Virus record (IMG/VR): IMGVR_UViG_3300044974_000213 | Location: 1-44,964 of that record | Origin: a virus | Strand: one strand, 5' to 3' | Length of the DNA stretch: 44,964 bases | The notes under the pieces: model-generated | Databases searched by the model: none | Seen by the model: the letters and a program-made list of their open reading frames with translations, nothing else | What the model was told of the DNA's origin: nothing | Part shown: positions 3,610 through 31,864 of the stretch, one piece after another | Position numbering within the stretch: the stretch's first letter is position 1 | How the letters are laid out: every line of letters begins with the position of its first letter | Position numbers and translations under genes: made by a program

Positions 3610-4848
3610 TTAAGAATGGAATACAGGTAAGATACCTAATGATAATGCTGAAGCTGTTTTACGTGTCCATGTACCACGTGCGTTAGCAATAGTACCAGTT
3701 GCTGTTAATGCTTTAGAAGTGCCGCTTTCAACAACACCCATGTAATTTGCATCAGATGGGAATTCAGTTTTAGCACCATTCCAATCGTAACCAGCAGGAG
3801 ATAATACATAACCCCAACGATTCCAAATAGAAGTTGTACCGCCACCTTTGTATTTGTTAGCGTCACGGTAAACTTCAACTGAATCAGGAACCATCAACTG
3901 TTCCATTGCAATTGCACCTGGCAATACAATGAATGAGGTTTTCTTATTAGCAGCAAAAGTAGTTGCAGCGCCAACGCCAGCACCAGTACGTAACATTGTT
4001 AATTCAGCAGCGGAAAGCGACTGAGCAGCACGTGTAGTAATTAGACGGAATTTACCATTGAAGATTGTGTTAAAGTTAATGTTACCATCAACAATAGTTG
4101 TTTCATCAACAAAGTTAGCTGAACGGAATGAAGCCATAGTTTCAGGAGATACAACTAAGTACGCCCATTCTGGTTCATAATCTTTAAATGCCATACCAAA
4201 TGCATTTAAGAAACCTTCAGCACGTGAAGCACCTTGATATGCATAGTTAGTAACGGCACCAGGAGCAACACCATTAGCAGTAACGATTTTCTCAGAACCA
4301 AGATCTACGTAGAAGCCATATTTCTTATCTGTAGGGTCGTTAGAGAATGTTTGACCACCAAGACCAGTTGCACCAGAACCTGTGGCGGCACCATTTAATG
4401 CTTCTGAAATAGCAACACCTTTCAATACAGAAAGAATAGCATTGTGTTCGTCTTGAGCGCGAGTTTCACCAAAGTCACGACCAATTTTAGCTAGACCGTC
4501 TTGTTGTGTAACAATTTGTTGCATGTTAACTTTTTCGGCACCGTGTGTACGCACAGTTTTAATATATGTGCTGTAGTCAGTGTCGTAACTGGTTTTGGTA
4601 CCATCTGTAGAATCAGTTAATGACGCAACGTTAATAGTTGGGTTTAACGGTTTCATCCAACGCATTTGGCCAATAAAGGTTTCTGTGCTGGTATCAATTT
4701 GTGGGTTAGAAGAAGTAATTCCTGTACCTGATAATTTTCTAGCATTAGTGTAAGCTTCGTCGCTGTATGCGCCAATAGCTTCTTGTAATACATAATTAGT
4801 AGATAATCCCGATGGCCCATTAGGAAGGCTTAAAGTTGTAGCGCCCAT
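3610..4848 (-). CDS. Major capsid protein
   Basis: A 412-residue protein starting MGATTLSLPNGPSGLSTNYV. It has 'MRWMKPLNPTINVASLTDSTDGTKTSY' near the N-terminus, 'DEHNAILSVLKGV' in the middle and 'WAYLVVSPETMASFRSANFVD', as in capsid proteins of phages with a separate scaffold. It directly follows the scaffold gene and precedes head-tail connectors. Codon and amino-acid use (Ala, Thr, Gly rich) fit a highly expressed shell protein. The two conserved 19-bp motifs upstream of the scaffold gene would drive it. Confidence 0.85.
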   Translation of the reverse strand: MGATTLSLPNGPSGLSTNYVLQEAIGAYSDEAYTNARKLSGTGITSSNPQIDTSTETFIGQMRWMKPLNPTINVASLTDSTDGTKTSYDTDYSTYIKTVRTHGAEKVNMQQIVTQQDGLAKIGRDFGETRAQDEHNAILSVLKGVAISEALNGAATGSGATGLGGQTFSNDPTDKKYGFYVDLGSEKIVTANGVAPGAVTNYAYQGASRAEGFLNAFGMAFKDYEPEWAYLVVSPETMASFRSANFVDETTIVDGNINFNTIFNGKFRLITTRAAQSLSAAELTMLRTGAGVGAATTFAANKKTSFIVLPGAIAMEQLMVPDSVEVYRDANKYKGGGTTSIWNRWGYVLSPAGYDWNGAKTEFPSDANYMGVVESGTSKALTATGTIANARGTWTRKTASALSLGILPVFHS

Positions 4849-4870: not shown

Positions 4871-5509
4871 TTATTTCCTGCGAAGTGATCCTTCAGCAGC
4901 ACGTTTAAGCACTTCATCTTGTGATAACTGGAATAAAGATTTATTCGAAGTATCTTGAGAAGTACTGCTAGAACTTGTCTGACCGGCCCCTGTCGAAACT
5001 TTTGGTTTGAATAAGAAAGAATTGTTATCGTCTTCAGAAAATTGTTTTATAAAGGTTCTTAGATCAGTTCCTGATTTATGCACCCATACTCCATTTTCAT
5101 TTTGTACAAGTTGCGATGCCACATCCATATATGCCATATCCGCAGCTTTATCACTCCTAAACGTATATCCACTAAGAACAGATTTTACTTCTAAATCCCT
5201 AGCGAGTTCTATGTTACGTTTTGTTATCGTTTCCAATTTAGCATTGGCTTCCGCTAACTGAAGTTCATAAACTTCTTTATGTTTTCCTTCTTCTTGAAGT
5301 CTTTTTATTTCAGCTTCTTTCTCTTTTTGTTCATACTCAGCAGCTTTCTTTAACGCATTGTCTCTTTCGCTGTACGCTTTATCGAGTTTTTCTTTGATTG
5401 GTTTAAGAGCTTCTTGGATCCTCGTGTCCATATCATCCACAGGAGAATTGGTAGCAGTAGTATCCGGAGTAATATTATCAGTTTCTTTTTCTTCGACATT
5501 TTCGGTCAT
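4871..5509 (-). CDS. Capsid scaffold protein
   Basis: About 212 residues starting MTENVEEKETDNITPDTTAT. The ATG at 5509 has AAAGGAAAC upstream and is preferred to an ATG 17 codons earlier, which would put a cysteine-rich segment into the leader hairpins. The protein has an acidic disordered N-terminus, a long coiled coil (LKKAAEYEQKEKEAEIKRLQ, then LEKANAKLETI-type heptads) and a Ser/Thr-rich tail ending in KRAAEGSLRRK. This is the usual build of phage scaffolds, and it sits immediately before the capsid gene. Confidence 0.8.
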   Translation of the reverse strand: MTENVEEKETDNITPDTTATNSPVDDMDTRIQEALKPIKEKLDKAYSERDNALKKAAEYEQKEKEAEIKRLQEEGKHKEVYELQLAEANAKLETITKRNIELARDLEVKSVLSGYTFRSDKAADMAYMDVASQLVQNENGVWVHKSGTDLRTFIKQFSEDDNNSFLFKPKVSTGAGQTSSSSTSQDTSNKSLFQLSQDEVLKRAAEGSLRRK

Positions 5510-5587: not shown

Positions 5588-5606
5588 AGGGTTAATTTAA
5601 CGGGGT
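5588..5606 (-). promoter_or_regulatory. Conserved 19-bp motif, copy 1 (putative phage RNA polymerase promoter)
   Basis: The plus-strand sequence is AGGGTTAATTTAACGGGGT; the reverse complement faces the scaffold and capsid genes, whose start is about 80 bp away. It contains GTTAA-T-TTAAC, a perfect inverted repeat. Five identical copies occur in the window, all in leaders or at transcription unit borders. The direction and the role as promoter are inferred from position only. Confidence 0.65.
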
Positions 5607-5701
5607 CTATTAATCATTAATATATTTATTTATTATTATTTTATTAAAGAATAAATAAAGGACTAATTAACTAATAGACTCATTAAAGGGGGGACCGCTT
5701 A

Positions 5702-5720
5702 AGGGTTAATTTAACGGGGT
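5702..5720 (-). promoter_or_regulatory. Conserved 19-bp motif, copy 2
   Basis: Identical to copy 1 and 114 bp upstream of it. It overlaps the last codons of the Tad2-like gene: on the minus strand ACCCCGTTAAATTAA encodes T-P-L-N and the stop. It is followed leftward by AAGCGGTCCCCCC, and the corresponding distal copy before terminase is followed by AAGCCGCTCCCCC. The paired arrangement and these G/C blocks suggest a duplicated regulatory module. Confidence 0.65.
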
Positions 5721-5927
5721 CTCTGGAAAGATAATCCAATCATCCGATAATAAATCAGACACTGAGGGAACCCATGTGTTCGTCTTAGTAGGTTGTGTTA
5801 ATATGAAAAATGGCTCAACTGAACCAAAATTTCTAACAATACTGACATACATGTTTTTACCGTTCCAACCTGTACGTGCTAGTTTGTGGTTTGCAATTAT
5901 TAAATCTAATGCGTGACTAAATTTCAT
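5706..5927 (-). CDS. DUF2829 protein, Tad2-like candidate anti-Thoeris protein
   Basis: A 73-residue protein starting MKFSHALDLIIANHKLARTG. It shows the DUF2829 layout: MxFxxAL..., a 'RTGWNGKNMYV' block, a central 'FFIL' strand and 'WVPSVSDLLSDDW' at the C-terminus. Characterised DUF2829 proteins (Tad2) bind and sequester the cyclic ADP-ribose signal of Thoeris defence. The chosen ATG overlaps the upstream stop (ATGA) and has GGAG about 9 nt upstream; a longer form would only add residues unlike the family. The gene sits between virion genes and its end overlaps a conserved 19-bp motif. The domain call is strong; activity is inferred. Confidence 0.8.
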   Translation of the reverse strand: MKFSHALDLIIANHKLARTGWNGKNMYVSIVRNFGSVEPFFILTQPTKTNTWVPSVSDLLSDDWIIFPETPLN

Positions 5928-6058
5928 TTGTGCTTTGCTCCACATACAGTACATGTGAATCCTTTCTTTTGATCAGGATTCATTACTCTCATTCCGTTAC
6001 CATGGAGTTTATCCTGATTAGGGTGTTGACATGTACATCTTTTAATTTCTGCGTTCAT
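5924..6058 (-). CDS. Small zinc-ribbon protein
   Basis: A 44-residue protein starting MNAEIKRCTCQHPNQDKLHG and ending FTCTVCGAKHK. A C-x-C pair near the N-terminus and a C-x2-C pair near the C-terminus form a probable zinc ribbon. It starts three bases after the stop of the giant polymerase gene and ends in an ATGA overlap with the Tad2-like gene, so it is part of the same message. Small ribbons like this are common in phages and of unknown role. Confidence 0.65.
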   Translation of the reverse strand: MNAEIKRCTCQHPNQDKLHGNGMRVMNPDQKKGFTCTVCGAKHK

Positions 6059-6061
6059 ATT

Positions 6062-9000
6062 TCAGCCTATGCCGTAAAAGCCCCAATCATCCTCAAATTT
6101 AGCAGGATCGGGGATATCGCTCATTACATCTTTCTTTGTTAAGATGTCCGCTTCTGTTAATGTTTTACCACCGACAACTGATTTACCAGCAACTGGAATT
6201 AATCCTTTGTCAATAGCTTCTTCTAAATATTGATCATATAATTCTTTTGGAAAACCTCTAGCTAACATTTCATCTAAAGTAACCTTGACAGGGTTCTTAT
6301 CTAGTACGTTAGCATATAGCTTTCTTATACCCTTCCGGGCCTCCAACATATCGGCTGCATTGGCGAAAAACGCATCGTGAATGGTTGACGTGGCAATTGT
6401 ATTGTCTCGTCCCCAGAGATGAAAATTCTTGACCAACGTGGCATCGTTTGAGTGATTCCCGTTAACGGCATAAGCTGTTCGTGCTTTAGTTGCGTCTGCA
6501 ATGTCATTTATTTTACCTTCAGCGTTTACTACTTGTTCCCACCAAGTGGCTTCTGTTTTCTGTTGCACTTGAACTAAATTATTAACCCAATTGCCGTCTT
6601 TGTCTTTATAGACTAAACGTTCTTCAAATGATTGAGTGAAATTCTGCTCAATAATCTTACCATCAAAATTAACCCATGGAACATTAGTCCATGATTTAGG
6701 TAATTTATTAGCATAAAATACTTCAAAGCCTTTAGAAATATTTAATTTTTCTATAGGCTCTAATTTAAATATTTTAAAACCTGTTCTACGATCTTTAGGG
6801 CCTTTTACACCATAAATAAGATCGGCTAATACACCATCTGGCTTCCAGCCGTCAAAACGTTTTAGAAATTTCTCAGACAATGCTTCACCAGCTTTTAAAC
6901 CTAATATCTCACTTACTCTGTCAGGTAATACATAGCCATTTTTACGTGTACCCAAAAGGCCTGTAGCACCTATTGATTTCCATTGCATTGCTGCTTGAGA
7001 AGGTTTGGCTTTAGTTAAATAATCTTCAGCTAATCTGCCAAAGAATTTAGTAAAGTCTTTTAAAATAGGTACTTGTTCGCTTAAATGTTCAGACATCAAC
7101 TTAGCTATAGCTTGAAAGTCTCTTGGTGTAACTACCATGTCATATGAGTGTGTCATCTTTTCAACAAGGTCTTTTGTTGCTGGATCTAAGAAATATAATT
7201 GTTCCATAATCTCGTCACCAGGGTCTAAACCTTTGTTGAAAATATCTTTTACATTTTCTCTTAATTCTTTAAGTTGTGCTGTAGTTTCAGGATCAAACTT
7301 TTCATACCTAGCAGCACGCGCAGATATTTCATTTAACACTTTATCACGATCACTAGCTTTTACAACTAATGTAGGTGCATATGTTTCAGGTTTCTTAGTT
7401 ACATTAGCTAATTCTTCTTGCAATGCTGAATTTAAATCTTTAATTATAACTTCAGGATCAGCAGATGTTGGTGTTAACTCCGCGTCTTCCAAAGCCATTT
7501 CAGCTGCTTGCTTGTTTGTTTTAAGATTATAAACACTAGCCTCATCTTTAATAACAGTGTCTTCACCAAACCTATTAGATTTTAAAATACGTTTTTGAGC
7601 TTCAATTAATTTAAAAGCTCTAGCGTCTTTTGGCACAGATAATGATAATAAATGTTCTTCTAAGAATTCTCCAAGTTCCTCAACGACTTGCATAGCAATA
7701 TATTTCTTTGTATCGCCTTTTGATCGCTGTTCAAACTTAGCTTTATTTTCAGCTATCTTTTCTTTAGAAAATTTCTCACCAGTCTTAGGATCAAATGTTT
7801 TATATGTAGCGCGTTCTTTACGAGCTTCTGTTAATTCAATATCTGAAGTATGTAACCACTTAAAAGTATCTTTTAATTCTGCAGGCGACAACTGACCTTT
7901 CATAGCCTTTGAAATTAACTCACCTTGCGATTTAATAATCTCATCTACTGTACCTACATAATTAGGATCTGTTTTATTATCAACACCTAATACTCTTAAC
8001 AATCCTGCAGAATCTTGACGTTCAGATAATAAACCTTCTGTTACTTTTGTTTCAACAGGTTTTGCAGGTTTCTTTTCCAATACTTTTGCAAGTTTACCTT
8101 CAACATTAAGAATTCCAGTTCTTTCTCCAGCACCATAAAACGTAACCATATTTTGAGCTTTTGCAGCTTTACGTAAATCTTTCTCATTTAAACCTAATCT
8201 TTCATTTAATACTTTAAACCGAGGATCATTGAATGTTGCTGCTGCAATCTCGTCATATAGACGTCTTTTCTGATTTGTAGGTATGACATTAGATAACGAG
8301 GCTAACTGTTTGTTTTTAGTTGTCAAAGCAATAATCTGAGCACCAGATGATGAAGCATCTTGTTCAAGAGCTAAGGCTGTTTTGTATTCATTCATAGAAC
8401 CACCAGCTTTAAGATAATTATCTATCTTAGCAGCTTCCATGGCAAATCTCATAAATTTACCAAGCTCTTCACCTTCAATTAATTGCATCATATCCGACTC
8501 AAGAATAGCACGTAAATCTGCAGGTTTGGCTCTTAACATTTTATTACCAAGATCTACCATATCAGGCCATAATTTATCAGCAATCTTTTGGCGTCCAGTA
8601 AATGACAATGAATTATATCTACCTTCAAATACATCATTTAGACCACCCATAAAGGCGCCTATCTGATCTCTGAAGTTTCTATATCCATCTTCGCCAAGAA
8701 CTTTTTCTACTTCAGTATTTAAGAAAGGTCTAAATGACTCTCCCGATTGCGGACTAATAAGGCCACGATCATAGATCCTAGCCCGATGATCGACAAAAGC
8801 ATGATTACTGAAAGCGTAATCATTATTTCTAAGCCAATCCATAGATTTAAATCGCTCATATGCATCACCACGAGATGAAATATAGTGTTTGTATTCATTT
8901 AAATCATTATACTTTTTAGCGGCACCTCTGTCATCTTCAAAGTATAATAGCTTTTGTGTAAAGTCGTAAAAGTCGTTATCAATTTTATACTTAGATTTAG

Positions 9001-11389
9001 ATGCCCAATTAAGTGCATCTGCCATATTCTTATCAACAAACTCTACAGGAAAATCTGAAAAACTATTTGTTGATGTAATAGGTATTCTAGTATCTTCTAA
9101 ACCGAGGACACCATTATCAATAAAATACGTTTTATAACCCTCGCGAAATAATAACTTATTCTTATCCGTTGTTACACCGACACGAAGGCCGACATCCACT
9201 TTCCGTGTGAGCTGTGAGTATTTTTGTACACGCGGGTCAGTAACACGTATATTATATGATAAGGTGTCATAATAGGGACCAAATAAAGAACCGCTTAATC
9301 TGCTTTTCATTCTTCTTTTTTGAACACCATATGTTTCAACTTCAAAGAATTGTTTTACATTTTTAGCTTCTAAAAGGCTCATGCCTAATTCATACCAGCT
9401 TTTTCTACTACCGTTTAAATTAGCAAGATTATATAAGTCTCTCCCTAAAGCAATAGCAAATTGATCTCTGTCAGGCATATCAGCTAAGCTTAATCTATGA
9501 GCAAACTTTAAATAAAATTGTTGCAATGCAGATTCTGTTAGTCGATCTTTACCATTAGGTAATTTCTTAAGCTTTAACGGAATTTTATAATCAAATACGT
9601 TACGTAATTCTCTTGCAATTTTAGGTGCTACAGTGTCTTCCCAATTATTCTTATCACGAATGTTTTGAATAAAATTATCATGTAAGTCTTGTAATTGAGT
9701 TGGGCCTAACACTGGATCAATATAATTATCTTGTTTGAGTTTCTTCAATACGTTGATATCACTACGTATCTGAGTTTCAATAGCATCAGAAACATTCATT
9801 ACATCAAATTTAATTTGACCTTGTACTACAGCTTTAAAATTATTCCACTGTTCACCATTATTTCTAAATCTAGTAAATAATATACGCAGGTTATCTACCA
9901 CGACTGCCCTTTCATTAGATCCCATTTTCTCACTAAGTAATTCATTAAACTCCTTAATAAATTCCTTATCTTTAGGTTTTAGAACATTACTTTGTTCTGT
10001 CAATCTTAAGTTATTATTTAGTACGGACGGATTGGGTTGATATAGTCTTGTATCTTCGTATCGACCTGTGACAGGATTAAAAATGAGTTGATCTTCTGTT
10101 GGAAGACTATTAAGTACTCTTGCCTTAGCAGATTTCTTAGTATGAATAAGACCACCCCTATAATTAGTGAGTGATAATGTACCGTCTAATTCACCTGATT
10201 GCAGTAAATAATAATCTTTAAGTGTTTGTATAAGCTTAGTGTTGCCAATTAAATCATCAGGTGTCATAATCGGAAGTTGCATAGCATCAAGTTTAGCTTT
10301 AGCATTAGCAAACTTTTTTGTATCATTTGGCAATGTATATGTGGGATCGGTCATCCGTCTTAATTCTTTAATCCCAATAGAATTACCTTCGGGATTAGTA
10401 AACTGATCTAAGGTAAGCTGCCCGCTTTGGAACATACTAACTTTTTTATAATCCCCAAGATGCCTTAATTGTACATCTTGTGGCTGACGCTTTAGCCAAT
10501 CATTGTATGATTCTCTAAGAGGTGTATTACCGTCATAAAAAGCCTTTTGCGCATCAGTTAAGTTCTCAATATTTCTACGTCTTACTTGCGCTACACTCTC
10601 TAAATCTGCTATATCTTTCCATGATTTAAATACAGGAACTGTTGTAGACCTACAATGCCAATGTGCTGGTGGGAGATGTGTTGTATCGCTAATTGGATAA
10701 ATTTCACCATCTCTATGGGCACATAGTGGAGTTGTTCGTGCGTCAAGGACAGCAACGTATTGCCATCCTTGTAACGCTTTTTCATTTGCCTTATAAATAG
10801 CATGATCAGCCTGAGAGGATACAGCTGTAATGGCTGTTATTACCAGACCTTTCGACTGCATGCGAGTTATATTATGTACGTTTCCTGAACGTACTTGTAG
10901 AGCTATTTCATCTACGCTTTTTCCGTCAGCTATACCCTTACGTATAACTGCTTCTAATCTAATTTTTTCGTTCTTGGCAATACCTGACCATCCCTGTTCC
11001 ATTGTACCATTTTCACTTAATGGATTTTTAAGTACAATTTCTTCAGAGATTCTATTTTTAGGTCTTTCAGTACGCCATATTTTACCCATTGCCACTTCAA
11101 CTTTTTGATAAGCATATGAGAGTTGATCTGAGACAAGTGATGAAAGATCTTTTTGAACAGAATTATTAATTGACTTATAAGTCTTTCTTAACTCTTGATC
11201 AACTGCTTCTCTGAATCTTTCAAAACCCCTACCTGATAGTTCAGCATCTTTAATTAATTTATCTAGTCTAACAACATGACCATCAATTACTAAATCAACT
11301 TTACCAGAGACTCTTCTCTCATACAGACGGATCATTGCTGCGCGATCTAGTGTTTTGTCGTATATTTGTGTATTACTATTGACGATCAT
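6062..11389 (-). CDS. Fusion of Mu gpF-like minor head protein and single-subunit (T7/N4-type) RNA polymerase
   Basis: A 1775-residue protein. Residues 1 to about 260 are a Mu gpF-type minor head domain: 'AVLDARTTPLCAHRDG' followed by 'PPAHWHCRSTTVPV' at about 210-255 is the family signature. The rest carries single-subunit RNA polymerase motifs in the right order: 'DHRARIYDRG' near residue 867 (T7 DxRGR), 'QDASSSGAQ' with Asp near 1011 (motif A), R1073-x3-K1077-x7-Y1085-G1086 with exactly the T7 spacing (motif B), and 'TIHDAFFANAADML' with Asp near 1672 (motif C). About 595 residues separate motifs B and C, far more than in T7 polymerase. The gene follows the portal, where a gpF-like protein belongs. 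I infer a capsid-borne polymerase ejected with the DNA, as in N4; that it is cleaved or ejected is not shown by sequence. Confidence 0.88.
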   Translation of the reverse strand: MIVNSNTQIYDKTLDRAAMIRLYERRVSGKVDLVIDGHVVRLDKLIKDAELSGRGFERFREAVDQELRKTYKSINNSVQKDLSSLVSDQLSYAYQKVEVAMGKIWRTERPKNRISEEIVLKNPLSENGTMEQGWSGIAKNEKIRLEAVIRKGIADGKSVDEIALQVRSGNVHNITRMQSKGLVITAITAVSSQADHAIYKANEKALQGWQYVAVLDARTTPLCAHRDGEIYPISDTTHLPPAHWHCRSTTVPVFKSWKDIADLESVAQVRRRNIENLTDAQKAFYDGNTPLRESYNDWLKRQPQDVQLRHLGDYKKVSMFQSGQLTLDQFTNPEGNSIGIKELRRMTDPTYTLPNDTKKFANAKAKLDAMQLPIMTPDDLIGNTKLIQTLKDYYLLQSGELDGTLSLTNYRGGLIHTKKSAKARVLNSLPTEDQLIFNPVTGRYEDTRLYQPNPSVLNNNLRLTEQSNVLKPKDKEFIKEFNELLSEKMGSNERAVVVDNLRILFTRFRNNGEQWNNFKAVVQGQIKFDVMNVSDAIETQIRSDINVLKKLKQDNYIDPVLGPTQLQDLHDNFIQNIRDKNNWEDTVAPKIARELRNVFDYKIPLKLKKLPNGKDRLTESALQQFYLKFAHRLSLADMPDRDQFAIALGRDLYNLANLNGSRKSWYELGMSLLEAKNVKQFFEVETYGVQKRRMKSRLSGSLFGPYYDTLSYNIRVTDPRVQKYSQLTRKVDVGLRVGVTTDKNKLLFREGYKTYFIDNGVLGLEDTRIPITSTNSFSDFPVEFVDKNMADALNWASKSKYKIDNDFYDFTQKLLYFEDDRGAAKKYNDLNEYKHYISSRGDAYERFKSMDWLRNNDYAFSNHAFVDHRARIYDRGLISPQSGESFRPFLNTEVEKVLGEDGYRNFRDQIGAFMGGLNDVFEGRYNSLSFTGRQKIADKLWPDMVDLGNKMLRAKPADLRAILESDMMQLIEGEELGKFMRFAMEAAKIDNYLKAGGSMNEYKTALALEQDASSSGAQIIALTTKNKQLASLSNVIPTNQKRRLYDEIAAATFNDPRFKVLNERLGLNEKDLRKAAKAQNMVTFYGAGERTGILNVEGKLAKVLEKKPAKPVETKVTEGLLSERQDSAGLLRVLGVDNKTDPNYVGTVDEIIKSQGELISKAMKGQLSPAELKDTFKWLHTSDIELTEARKERATYKTFDPKTGEKFSKEKIAENKAKFEQRSKGDTKKYIAMQVVEELGEFLEEHLLSLSVPKDARAFKLIEAQKRILKSNRFGEDTVIKDEASVYNLKTNKQAAEMALEDAELTPTSADPEVIIKDLNSALQEELANVTKKPETYAPTLVVKASDRDKVLNEISARAARYEKFDPETTAQLKELRENVKDIFNKGLDPGDEIMEQLYFLDPATKDLVEKMTHSYDMVVTPRDFQAIAKLMSEHLSEQVPILKDFTKFFGRLAEDYLTKAKPSQAAMQWKSIGATGLLGTRKNGYVLPDRVSEILGLKAGEALSEKFLKRFDGWKPDGVLADLIYGVKGPKDRRTGFKIFKLEPIEKLNISKGFEVFYANKLPKSWTNVPWVNFDGKIIEQNFTQSFEERLVYKDKDGNWVNNLVQVQQKTEATWWEQVVNAEGKINDIADATKARTAYAVNGNHSNDATLVKNFHLWGRDNTIATSTIHDAFFANAADMLEARKGIRKLYANVLDKNPVKVTLDEMLARGFPKELYDQYLEEAIDKGLIPVAGKSVVGGKTLTEADILTKKDVMSDIPDPAKFEDDWGFYGIG

Positions 11390-11398
11390 GTGTCACCA

Positions 11399-12988
11399 TT
11401 ATTCTTTAATTATTTTCGGTTTTACAGCGGCTTCTACTTGCATTGCATACTGATCATTATATTTAGTTGCTGCAGGTATAATTTGAGGGTCTGCGTTTAC
11501 TTCTTGTAATGCGGCTTCATCATCATATTCAGAATCAAGAATATCATTTGCCTTTAGCATCTGCAGCCACACAGTTCTAGGTAATAAACCTGATTGATAC
11601 CATTGAGTGACAAGATTCAACCAATCAGCACCTAAAGGCACTGGATCAAAATCTGCGGATAAATTAAACACAATATCACATGAATCAATTTGCAGGCCAT
11701 ATCTCCAGTTAACCATTAAGCATATTACTTGCTTTAATGTACTAGATATCTTTGTACTCAACACACTTAATTGTGCCGTTTGAGCAGCATTACGAATTTC
11801 TAATGCAATACCTGATTGTTCATTTTCAGTTGTAAGCATTCTAATGCCAAGTTTAGCCATTTCATCAATAGATGCTTCAATAGCTTTTTGCATGTCTTGT
11901 AATGCGTCTGTGGGTGTTTTTAAGACATCTGCTTTATCATCTTGGCGTAATCTTATCCAAGACCCTAATCCAGCGTCTACAATTTCATCAAATTGTTCAT
12001 CAGGCATATCTGACATAATAACAGGCGTATAAGTAGCCGCACCGTATAGTAAATGATTTCGTCTACTAATTTTATTATATAGGCTAATCTCTTTATCTAC
12101 GATAGGCATTAATAATGGCATAATAGGTTCTATATTACCATTAACAGGCCATGCAGGAATATGCTTTAGCGGTTCCCCGTTATTAAGTATATTGTCAAAT
12201 GTTTCTATTAACTCGAAATGGCCTGAAGGTAGTAATTGCTGAGCTTTCTCACCAATACCCCCTATTTTAAGAGTTTGATCGCCATTGTCTTTAGTTGTGC
12301 CCATGAACTTACGAATTTGGTAATTACCTTGTTCGTTTAACTCATGCACCCATACCGTAGGGACTCTCATAGCATGGAATTCATTAATAGTATAATCTTC
12401 TGAGTAACCTTTAACAATTACATATTTTAAAACTGTTTTACCAAATATATCTACAGTTGTTGCCCAATTAACAATTGTTTCAGCTTTTTGCAAAATAGGA
12501 TATGGTTTAATCATATCTCTAGTTTCTTTATCTAAGTTCTCAACATCATTAACGGACGGATAGTCTACAAATACCCATGCACGGGATGTATTAATTTCTT
12601 CCCACAATAGTTCATCAAGAAATGCTACTAGTGTAGAGTCATCACGTCCGATATTATTGATAAGCCAATCTTTAGCTTCTTCAGGAACTTCATCTGGTAA
12701 TGTCAATATAGGAGCTTTTCTTAATAAACCCCCAACAAGCATCTTAGCAAATTGTGCAGTAATGCCTGGTAATTCAGCTTCTGACTTATAAAAGTCATAT
12801 TGAGCTTGGCTCATTGTTGTAGAGAAGGGTATCAGCAAATTGCTAAATCTAATTAGATCAATATACTGATCCAGCTCTTTTACAGTACGTTCCCCATTGC
12901 ATACAGCACGTGCCTTATTCCACGAAGGTTTAAGATACTCATACGCTTGACAAGGATCCGCAACTGTCTTAGTAGGGCCGTATGTCAT
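11399..12988 (-). CDS. Portal protein (DUF4055-like)
   Basis: A 529-residue protein starting MTYGPTKTVADPCQAYEYLK. The N-terminus 'WNKARAVCNGERTVK' followed by 'YDFYKSEAELPGITAQFAKMLVGGLLRKAP' and 'EINTSRAWVFVDYP' is characteristic of the DUF4055 portal-like family. The later 'LGIRMLTTENEQSGIALEIRNAAQTAQL' helix fits the portal stem and crown region. It forms the dodecameric DNA channel at one capsid vertex. The gene lies directly before the gpF-polymerase fusion, the classical portal-gpF order. Confidence 0.85.
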   Translation of the reverse strand: MTYGPTKTVADPCQAYEYLKPSWNKARAVCNGERTVKELDQYIDLIRFSNLLIPFSTTMSQAQYDFYKSEAELPGITAQFAKMLVGGLLRKAPILTLPDEVPEEAKDWLINNIGRDDSTLVAFLDELLWEEINTSRAWVFVDYPSVNDVENLDKETRDMIKPYPILQKAETIVNWATTVDIFGKTVLKYVIVKGYSEDYTINEFHAMRVPTVWVHELNEQGNYQIRKFMGTTKDNGDQTLKIGGIGEKAQQLLPSGHFELIETFDNILNNGEPLKHIPAWPVNGNIEPIMPLLMPIVDKEISLYNKISRRNHLLYGAATYTPVIMSDMPDEQFDEIVDAGLGSWIRLRQDDKADVLKTPTDALQDMQKAIEASIDEMAKLGIRMLTTENEQSGIALEIRNAAQTAQLSVLSTKISSTLKQVICLMVNWRYGLQIDSCDIVFNLSADFDPVPLGADWLNLVTQWYQSGLLPRTVWLQMLKANDILDSEYDDEAALQEVNADPQIIPAATKYNDQYAMQVEAAVKPKIIKE

Positions 12989-17587: not shown

Positions 17588-17845
17588 TTAACCTCCGAAT
17601 ACTATAGCCATTGCTATGGCTTTGCCTGTTGATACACCGCTTGAACCGCCAGAGATAACAATATCACCAGTTCCTAGTAAAGAAGTGCTGTTAATTGTTT
17701 TAATATTTGTCCCACTAATTAAAGTAGGTTGTGCGTCAAGAGCTGTCAAAGCCGCAATAGCTGTTGTAGCTCCTGTACCTCCGTTAATTATAGGCAATGT
17801 CCCATAATTAGCACCACGGAGAATATCTGATAAATTTTTAGCCAT
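17588..17845 (-). CDS. Short tail fibre module protein
   Basis: An 85-residue protein starting MAKNLSDILRGANYGTLPII. 'NGGTGATTAIAALTALDAQ' followed by 'LISGTNIKTINSTSLLGTGD' is the common repeat of phage tail fibres, and the same module occurs twice in the 589-residue fibre gene and once in the 151-residue one. It is either a small separate fibre part or a remnant of module exchange. It is complete, with its own start. Confidence 0.65.
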   Translation of the reverse strand: MAKNLSDILRGANYGTLPIINGGTGATTAIAALTALDAQPTLISGTNIKTINSTSLLGTGDIVISGGSSGVSTGKAIAMAIVFGG

Positions 17846-19364: not shown

Positions 19365-21130
19365 TTCAAATCCTTACCAACTACAAAACCGTTCCAAACA
19401 TTGTTACTACCTGCTCTGAAGAATACTAATGTATCTCTACCTGCGGCAGTTAATGTAGGGGCTGTACCACCTACCCATTTAATGCCCCACCAAGTAATAG
19501 CAAAGGCACCTCCATTAGTTAAATCTAGCACGAATGAATTGACGTCGAGAACACCACTAGCTGAATTGCTTACGGCAATAGTAGATGCCGCAGTTGGTGT
19601 TATAGAAAAATAATTAGCTTCAGTACAAGAGATAGTAAAAACATTAGACACCCCCGATACGCCAATACCAGTTTCTTTAGTACCTTTTAAAACTGGTGCA
19701 GTATTAAATACTACACTGCCTGTCCCTGTTTCATCATTAATTGCAGCTAATAGGTTAGAACTAGTAGGTGATCCTAAAAATGTAGCAATACCAGTTCCAA
19801 AAGAAGTTATGCCAGTACCGCCATTAGCAACAGGTAATGCAGTTCCTGATAAAGTTACTGCTAAAGTACCACTAGCTGTCACGGGAGAGCCTGTTACAGA
19901 AAGAAAACTTGGAACTGTTAATCCAACTGAAGTTACACCACCGCCTCCACCAGTAATTGTAATATCGCCAGAGCCTAAAAGAGAAGTACCATTAACTGTT
20001 TTAATATTTGTGCCACTTACTAAAGCTGCTTGCTTAGTATTGAAGGTTGTCCAATCAGCGGTTGTTAAAACACCCCTATTAGTTGCACTAGCACTAGGCA
20101 CATTAATTGTAATCACTGGAGTTGATGTGCTTGTGGCTACACTAGATGTTATATCTGTACCTGTATCACCGATTGTTAATGCAGCTACTGAAGTTACACC
20201 ACCAGCAATTGTTAAATCACCTGAGCCTAGTATAGAATTACCATTAACTGTTTTTACATTAGTACCACTAACTAAAGCAGCTTGTTTGCTATTAAAAGTA
20301 CTCCAATCAGCGGCTGTTAAGACACCTCTGGCCGTTGCGCTAGCGCTAGGTACATTAATTGTAATTACTGGAGTCGATGTACTTGTGACTACCGAAGCTG
20401 TAATATCGGTTCCTGTTGTAGTAATAGTTGGTGCCGCAACAGATGTAACTGTGCCAGCAGGATTACTTGCGGCAACTGTTGGTGTTTCTAACAATCTCCA
20501 ATTAGTTGTTGCTTGATTATACACAAAAGAAACAGAAGCACCGCTAATGTCTAAAATTAATGAAGTTGAATCGCCTTCAATAGTACCGCCATTTGGCAAT
20601 ACAGTAAGTTTATTAGCTGTAAAAGTGTTATAAATATCCACAACACCTACAATATCTCCGTCTGTTGGTGTCGATGGCATACTAACTGAAAAAGCTCCAG
20701 CCGTAGTATTACATCTAACTAATTCGTTTTTAGCCGCTGTATATGCAGCAGTCTTAATGCCTGTCGGTAAAAGACCTCCCCCACTAGGACTGCCACTACC
20801 GACAAATGAACTCCAAGTGTAGTCAGCAGCAACAGTTGATTCTGTAGCACTTGTTTTATTAACAGCAATACCGATAAAACTCATTCCTGCTGGGTTATCT
20901 GTCAAACCAGTCCCAATTGCATCAGTAGCGTATTTAACCCATGTGTATAGAGAATTACCGTCATTGACGATTAAAGTCCAAGCAGTAGTGTCTGTGGGCA
21001 ACGCACTTGTAGCGCCTTTTGCAATATATGATGCATTATTATATCTAACTAAATCTAATGCTTTATAGGTTCCAGCCGCCCAATCTCCTTTTGGGACTAC
21101 GGCAACTCTACCTAAATTCGTTGTTGTCAT
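19361..21130 (-). CDS. Large tail fibre protein with tandem repeats
   Basis: A 589-residue protein starting MTTTNLGRVAVVPKGDWAAG. The N-terminal 'GDWAAGTYKALDLVRYNNASYIAKG' is a carbohydrate-binding-module-5/12-like segment seen at fibre N-termini. In the middle two near-identical units of about 90 residues repeat, each ending with 'SGTNxKTVNGxSxLGSGDxTI'. Next comes 'LPVANGGTGITSFGTGI', a collar motif common to phage fibres, and a beta-rich C-terminus. It probably forms trimeric fibres. Confidence 0.75.
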   Translation of the reverse strand: MTTTNLGRVAVVPKGDWAAGTYKALDLVRYNNASYIAKGATSALPTDTTAWTLIVNDGNSLYTWVKYATDAIGTGLTDNPAGMSFIGIAVNKTSATESTVAADYTWSSFVGSGSPSGGGLLPTGIKTAAYTAAKNELVRCNTTAGAFSVSMPSTPTDGDIVGVVDIYNTFTANKLTVLPNGGTIEGDSTSLILDISGASVSFVYNQATTNWRLLETPTVAASNPAGTVTSVAAPTITTTGTDITASVVTSTSTPVITINVPSASATARGVLTAADWSTFNSKQAALVSGTNVKTVNGNSILGSGDLTIAGGVTSVAALTIGDTGTDITSSVATSTSTPVITINVPSASATNRGVLTTADWTTFNTKQAALVSGTNIKTVNGTSLLGSGDITITGGGGGVTSVGLTVPSFLSVTGSPVTASGTLAVTLSGTALPVANGGTGITSFGTGIATFLGSPTSSNLLAAINDETGTGSVVFNTAPVLKGTKETGIGVSGVSNVFTISCTEANYFSITPTAASTIAVSNSASGVLDVNSFVLDLTNGGAFAITWWGIKWVGGTAPTLTAAGRDTLVFFRAGSNNVWNGFVVGKDLK

Positions 21131-27245: not shown

Positions 27246-27264
27246 AGGGTTAATTTAACGGGGT
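27246..27264 (-). promoter_or_regulatory. Conserved 19-bp motif, copy 3
   Basis: Identical to the other copies. On the minus strand it lies about 90 bp upstream of the terminase small subunit start. After it comes AAGATTAATAATAAATAATTG, an AT-rich stretch. It is the proximal member of the pair that precedes the long structural transcription unit. Confidence 0.65.
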
Positions 27265-27288
27265 TTTCTATATGTCTCAGCGCTCTGC

Positions 27289-27401: not shown

Positions 27402-27420
27402 AGGGTTAATTTAACGGGGT
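27402..27420 (-). promoter_or_regulatory. Conserved 19-bp motif, copy 4
   Basis: Identical to the others and 156 bp upstream of copy 3. It lies just downstream of the strong terminator that ends the accessory operon, where a new promoter is expected. On the leftward side AAGCCGCTCCCCC follows, similar to the sequence next to copy 2. Confidence 0.65.
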
Positions 27421-27450
27421 TAGTTTAAAGGAATAAGTATAAAACAAAAG

Positions 27451-31840: not shown

Positions 31841-31859
31841 AGGGTTAATTTAACGGGGT
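31841..31859 (-). promoter_or_regulatory. Conserved 19-bp motif, copy 5
   Basis: Identical to the others. It lies about 125 bp upstream of the 204-residue gene and just downstream of the GC-rich tail of the preceding gene. This is the only single copy; the others are paired. It marks the third place where a transcription unit begins. Confidence 0.65.
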
Positions 31860-31864
31860 TGGCA

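Follow-up and report, generated by a model that had tools for sequence, protein, structure and literature searches.

The DNA analysed here (the window) is a virus record of 44,964 bases, and at 5706–5927 its minus strand holds an ORF of 73 codons that begins with an ATG at 5927. The ORF, a PF11195 match and a structural model identify it as a gene of the Tad2 family, hereafter tad2; its 73-aa product, MKFSHALDLIIANHKLARTGWNGKNMYVSIVRNFGSVEPFFILTQPTKTNTWVPSVSDLLSDDWIIFPETPLN, contains a GWNGKNM loop and a C-terminal WVPSVSDLLSDDW element. A preliminary description of this DNA had placed the gene correctly, but its strand is corrected here to minus, a plus-strand reading of 5706–5927 being ruled out by many stop codons.

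The start of tad2 overlaps by 4 nt (ATGA) the stop of a minus-strand ORF (5924–6058) for a zinc-ribbon-like protein of 44 aa (CxC...CxxC, no Pfam match). The start of that gene lies 3 nt past the stop of a 1775-aa gene (6062–11389, minus strand) in which MuF (PF04233) is fused to a single-subunit RNA polymerase (PF00940 and phrog_414); the fusion is probably the virion RNA polymerase. The portal gene lies upstream (11399–12988; phrog_145, 1.9e-56), and the genes for the head scaffolding protein (4871–5509; phrog_206, 3.5e-09) and the major capsid protein (3610–4848; phrog_247, 2.2e-18) lie downstream, all three on the minus strand. Gene calls and domains bear out the earlier statement that the gene follows the virion polymerase and zinc-ribbon genes. 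The nearest annotated phages of the record are EBPR siphovirus 1, the Noahvirus DSS3_VP1 and DSS3_PM1, the first two being nearest by MuF-polymerase and capsid; both share the order portal, MuF-polymerase, scaffold and capsid, but between polymerase and scaffold, the position called the slot below, both lack the zinc-ribbon and tad2 genes. An HNH gene interrupts the stretch of EBPR siphovirus 1 that is homologous to the MuF-polymerase gene (gp47–gp49).

Membership of the Tad2 family is well supported. The protein scores 64.9 bits (E 1e-17; curated cut-off 25 bits) against PF11195 (Tad2-like, formerly DUF2829), residues 1–66 aligning with profile positions 1–72 of 73, and this is the only match to the profile in the whole record. 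A single-sequence phmmer search of PDB chains returned Tad2 proteins only (SPO1 Tad2, 3e-9; ModTad2, 4.6e-8; HgmTad2/AcrIIA7, 4e-7), and a profile built on 45 viral relatives finds the same proteins at 6e-28 to 3e-24. All 12 columns that are invariant in the 45-member alignment are kept, as are all 12 that are common to ModTad2, SPO1 Tad2, HgmTad2 and SptTad2; residues of the family-invariant set include R18, W21-N22-G23-K24, W52, S55, D58 and D63-W64. The PADLOC library, which covers defence and not anti-defence genes, gave no match for tad2 or the neighbouring candidates.

The AlphaFold2 monomer model, calculated from the 45-relative alignment, has a pLDDT of 92.7 and a pTM of 0.78. Its elements follow in the order helix (3–11), four strands (15–18, 27–31, 40–44, 49–51), helix (56–60) and strand (64–67). 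Each of the 24 Foldseek hits at E ≤ 0.001 is a Tad2 entry (TM by query 0.73–0.80), so that the structure prediction proposed as a check, now run, agrees with the family assignment made from sequence, as do the PF11195 score and the invariant residues. The best match is ModTad2 without ligand (TM 0.79–0.80, rmsd 2.0–2.1, 70–71 columns).

The region from the polymerase gene to the scaffold gene was compared across 51 distinct related contigs. Most contigs of the short tad2 type came from a search with the window protein and the others from a motif scan, so the proportions that follow are not frequencies. In 34 of the 51, tad2 is complete or truncated merely where the contig stops, and it occurs there as three allele types: 15 short, 18 whose middle segment has 32 residues, and a single long one (L126, allele C, 84 aa). 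In two contigs (L087, L114) it is a remnant with the middle deleted, and in 12 the zinc-ribbon gene stands without it. Nine of these 12 are otherwise very close to the window (zinc-ribbon and scaffold proteins 98–100% identical, polymerase C-terminus 93%), while the other three share 71–82% identity with its proteins. Three deeper relatives, like the two annotated phages above, have neither gene. No PF11195 match was found anywhere in three tad2-less records of 63–79 kb.

The alleles are exchanged between phage backgrounds at this fixed slot. Between L126 and L186 the DNA of the flanking genes is 87–93% identical, against 70% with 38 gap columns for tad2; in L083 and L088 the relation is reversed, with 81.5% for tad2 and 72–73% for the flanks. 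L126 and L186 share 83% identity over the first 24 codons of tad2 and 56%, with gaps, over its middle, a break that suggests exchange inside the gene. Homing-type genes (HNH/AP2) also occupy the slot (L016, L110); variability alone is therefore no proof of a defence role, and not all passengers are anti-defence genes.

This pattern bears on two other readings of the gene. A protein of Tad2 fold might have been taken over for a task in the virion or in transcription, for instance partnering the zinc-ribbon protein or the virion RNA polymerase; tad2 does lie between polymerase and scaffold, and it overlaps the zinc-ribbon gene, which accompanies it in this clade. However, the zinc-ribbon gene is also kept when tad2 is absent, and the 12 relatives that lack tad2 and the two in which it is broken retain the polymerase, zinc-ribbon and capsid genes. 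Thus tad2 is not needed for the virion, and since its alleles also move between backgrounds we regard such a role as very unlikely. The second reading, that tad2 is itself a decaying or non-functional remnant with a shortened middle, draws on the spacing from WNGK to W52 (27 residues, compared with 43 in L126) and on the true remnants in L087 and L114. Yet dN/dS between diverged short alleles is 0.16–0.22, similar to that of the scaffold gene, and tad2 is therefore maintained for its protein by purifying selection; the short form is open in 15 contigs and its fold is predicted with confidence. Short forms are moreover common in the family, being known from many viral contigs (73–75 aa in L026, L029, L032 and L079) and from the Klebsiella jumbo phage N1M2, so the length of the window protein is no anomaly. 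Decay is the least credible of the explanations considered, and we give it hardly any weight.

The slot can also hold a further gene. At least four relatives (L083, L103, L119, L168) carry an extra gene between the polymerase and zinc-ribbon genes whose product matches PF13876 (111 bits), to which the anti-CBASS sponge Acb4 of SPO1 belongs (PMC11722364); searched against the PDB, its only match is the Acb4 crystal structure 9e4w (E 9e-4). Fusions of Tad2 with PF13876 occur in L018 and in gp05 of Alcaligenes phage QDWS595, where a second PF13876 protein, gp06, adjoins it. The gain, loss and exchange of tad2, together with the Acb4-family gene in the slot of relatives, support an accessory anti-defence role. 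Of the proposal that the gene is a Tad2 anti-Thoeris candidate, the family thus stands, and it is the anti-defence role in general that the slot pattern and the Acb4-family neighbour support. No PF13876 match was found in the window itself, and a PF24729 scan gave no match in the window and none in the controls either. The genes directly flanking 53 other Tad2-family genes encode 102 proteins, among them one PF13876 protein and one Acb2/Tad1; neither kind occurs among 73 more distant proteins, and the counts are too small for a test.

Some related domain arrangements were seen alongside. The Tad2 and PF13876 domains fused at L018:8001–8723 and at L201:1940–2530 stand in opposite orders. At L027:8001–8477 a Tad2 domain is fused to a domain of crAss001_48 type (PF21825), which is also found C-terminal to PF13876 in QDWS595 gp06.

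Characterized Tad2 proteins allow the likely ligand to be narrowed. SPO1 Tad2 (Gp34.65, PDB 8SME/8SMF/8SMG) binds gcADPR; it has the family and fold of the window protein, an identical GWNGKNM loop and the WVPS motif, but is 33% identical and has a longer β2–β3 segment, which is nearly absent here. ModTad2 from a Myroides odoratus prophage (PDB 8V3E/9EIB) inhibits type II Thoeris, and its reported ligand is His-ADPR (PMC13299392; the PDB title concurs). It has the closest fold and, like the window protein, contains the GWNGK loop and the TWxPSVSDxLxxDW element, but differs in length (88–89 aa), in a longer β2–β3 segment and in sequence (34% identity over 83 columns). HgmTad2/AcrIIA7 and SptTad2 (PDB 8KBI-8KBK, 8WJD), known in complexes with cADPR and cGG, agree in family, fold and core residues but are only 25–31% identical, contain a long insertion and read WLASQTD where the window protein reads WVPSVSD. 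Among annotated phages the nearest family member is that of N1M2 (47% identity), which is also of the short form but adjoins tRNA and HNH genes outside the head cluster. The N1M2 protein gp255 (L198:1929–2168), of the Tad2 family, is annotated as ‘methionine--tRNA ligase’, apparently wrongly.

In Tad2 proteins the gcADPR pocket is described as lined by loop β1–β2, loop β3–β4 and strand β4 of one protomer and by loop β1–β2, loop β4–α3 and helix α3 of another, and the dinucleotide site of some members is an insertion after β2 (review, PMC12043709). All the named elements of the gcADPR pocket are found in the monomer model, in a comparison at the level of structural elements. Between β2 and β3, however, the window protein has only ∼ 8 residues, and the insertion of HgmTad2/SptTad2 type is nearly absent. 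An ADP-ribose-type ligand is therefore expected over a cyclic dinucleotide; CBASS dinucleotide binding through the insertion site is not expected from sequence and model, and the target is most likely an ADP-ribose signal made by a TIR protein. The alignment does not separate gcADPR from His-ADPR, since the TWxPSVSD element is ModTad2-like and the GWNGKNM loop is identical to that of SPO1 Tad2. The known assembly is a homotetramer of V-shaped dimers that involves helix α2 with β2, and helix α1; in SPO1 Tad2, helix α2 is described as belonging to the V-shaped dimer interface (PMC12043709). Helix α2 has no counterpart in our monomer model, and the assembly may therefore differ from that of SPO1 Tad2.

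That the protein is instead a Tad2-fold sponge for a nucleotide signal other than that of Thoeris, such as a cyclic oligonucleotide of CBASS, seems to us improbable. The ligands of the family do vary (gcADPR, His-ADPR, cyclic dinucleotides) and an anti-CBASS gene of the Acb4 family sits in the slot of relatives, but the dinucleotide segment after β2 is nearly absent, and 3'3'-cGAMP is not a ligand of SPO1 Tad2 (PMC11722364).

We thus favour, with reasonable but not full confidence, a compact Tad2-family sponge that is probably made late and would bind an ADP-ribose-derived signal and keep a defence effector inactive. This reading is based on the family, the fold, the core residues, purifying selection and the accessory, exchangeable behaviour of the gene at a fixed slot. 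The protein would be made together with the products of the portal and MuF-RNA polymerase genes and would hold its signal, the gcADPR of type I or the His-ADPR of type II Thoeris, without degrading it, in inter-protomer pockets of an oligomer; the defence effector would then stay inactive and the phage would be protected. We take it to be a probable counter-defence gene, genuine but ordinary, of an already known family.

The 3' end of tad2 coincides with a promoter-like motif, a near-invariant 19-nt element with an internal palindrome that reads ACCCCGTTAAATTAACCCT on the transcription strand. Five near-identical copies were located by sequence match in the window, where none is expected, all on the minus strand (5588–5608, 5702–5722, 27246–27266, 27402–27422 and 31841–31861). 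The copy at 5702–5722 (AGGGTTAATTTAACGGGGTCT) contains the tad2 stop codon, and the copy at 5588–5608 lies upstream of the scaffold and capsid genes. The motif was found in 111 stretches of viral contigs, and in many related contigs it stands upstream of genes, often in pairs ∼ 80–160 nt apart. An ORF with an ATG start follows on the same strand, 27–259 nt downstream, at 72 of the 73 distinct sites. Across 42 divergent site clusters conservation falls sharply at the edges of the motif, which are the informative part, the sites having been gathered by exact core. We take the motif to be probably a phage promoter, possibly one for the phage's own MuF-fused polymerase. Between the paired copies lies an AT-rich stretch (5609–5701) that, like its equivalents in L089 and L126, contains imperfect inverted repeats whose sequence varies among relatives and may form a hairpin. 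A motif scan of genome assemblies was rejected as a route to the host; it returned only three metagenome-assembled gammaproteobacterial contigs, one of them probably phage DNA in a bin.

The preliminary description had noted that the end of tad2 doubles as a copy of the motif. The overlap exists, but it is not conserved between alleles: the short allele of the window type has its stop inside the motif, the motif follows directly after the stop in allele B (73 aa in L088), and in L016 it begins 4 nt beyond where it does in allele B, again after the stop. These positions, and the retention of the motif where tad2 is missing, rule out the motif as part of the coding function of Tad2. The C-terminal residues that it partly encodes, including PLN, are disordered in the model (pLDDT ∼ 52). 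Judged from the aligned alleles, the gene happens to end within a promoter-like element, and the overlap is incidental.

Late expression of tad2 would fit its co-orientation with the portal and polymerase genes and the position of the nearest upstream motif copies at 27.2–27.4 kb. The location in the head gene cluster had been described as unusual; the location is right, but it is less odd than implied, since Tad2-family genes occur in other head or packaging clusters. In Klebsiella phage IME346 such a gene lies between, and overlaps, the genes for the terminase large subunit and a DUF1073 (portal-like) protein; in QDWS595 it precedes the terminase genes, and in N4-like Gamaleyavirus its end adjoins the virion RNA polymerase gene convergently. 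The head-cluster position is therefore not unique. Elsewhere, Tad2-family genes lie among replication genes (Ochrobactrum phage ZX86) or near tRNA genes, and for the 53 relatives no enrichment of head genes beside them could be shown, the neighbours being too diverse.

The major head protein is the trigger of one Thoeris type (PMC12043709), and this could explain how a sponge that is made late, from a gene next to that for the capsid, would be effective. We speculate, while thinking it rather doubtful, that tad2 lies there because the capsid protein triggers Thoeris, so that antidote and trigger are made together, and that the slot is an exchange site at which alleles and middle segments are swapped to follow changes in the host signal.

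The slot amounts to a natural experiment, in which near-identical phages have tad2, lack it or have other alleles of it at one fixed position. Comparing the alleles could show the ADP-ribose signal of each and the Thoeris specificity of a compact form without the dinucleotide site, and the slot points to further counter-defence genes in this uncultured phage group. A 589-aa gene elsewhere in the window contains a tandemly duplicated 252-nt unit (19947–20450, 77% identical), and copies related to it occur at 17626 and 21372.
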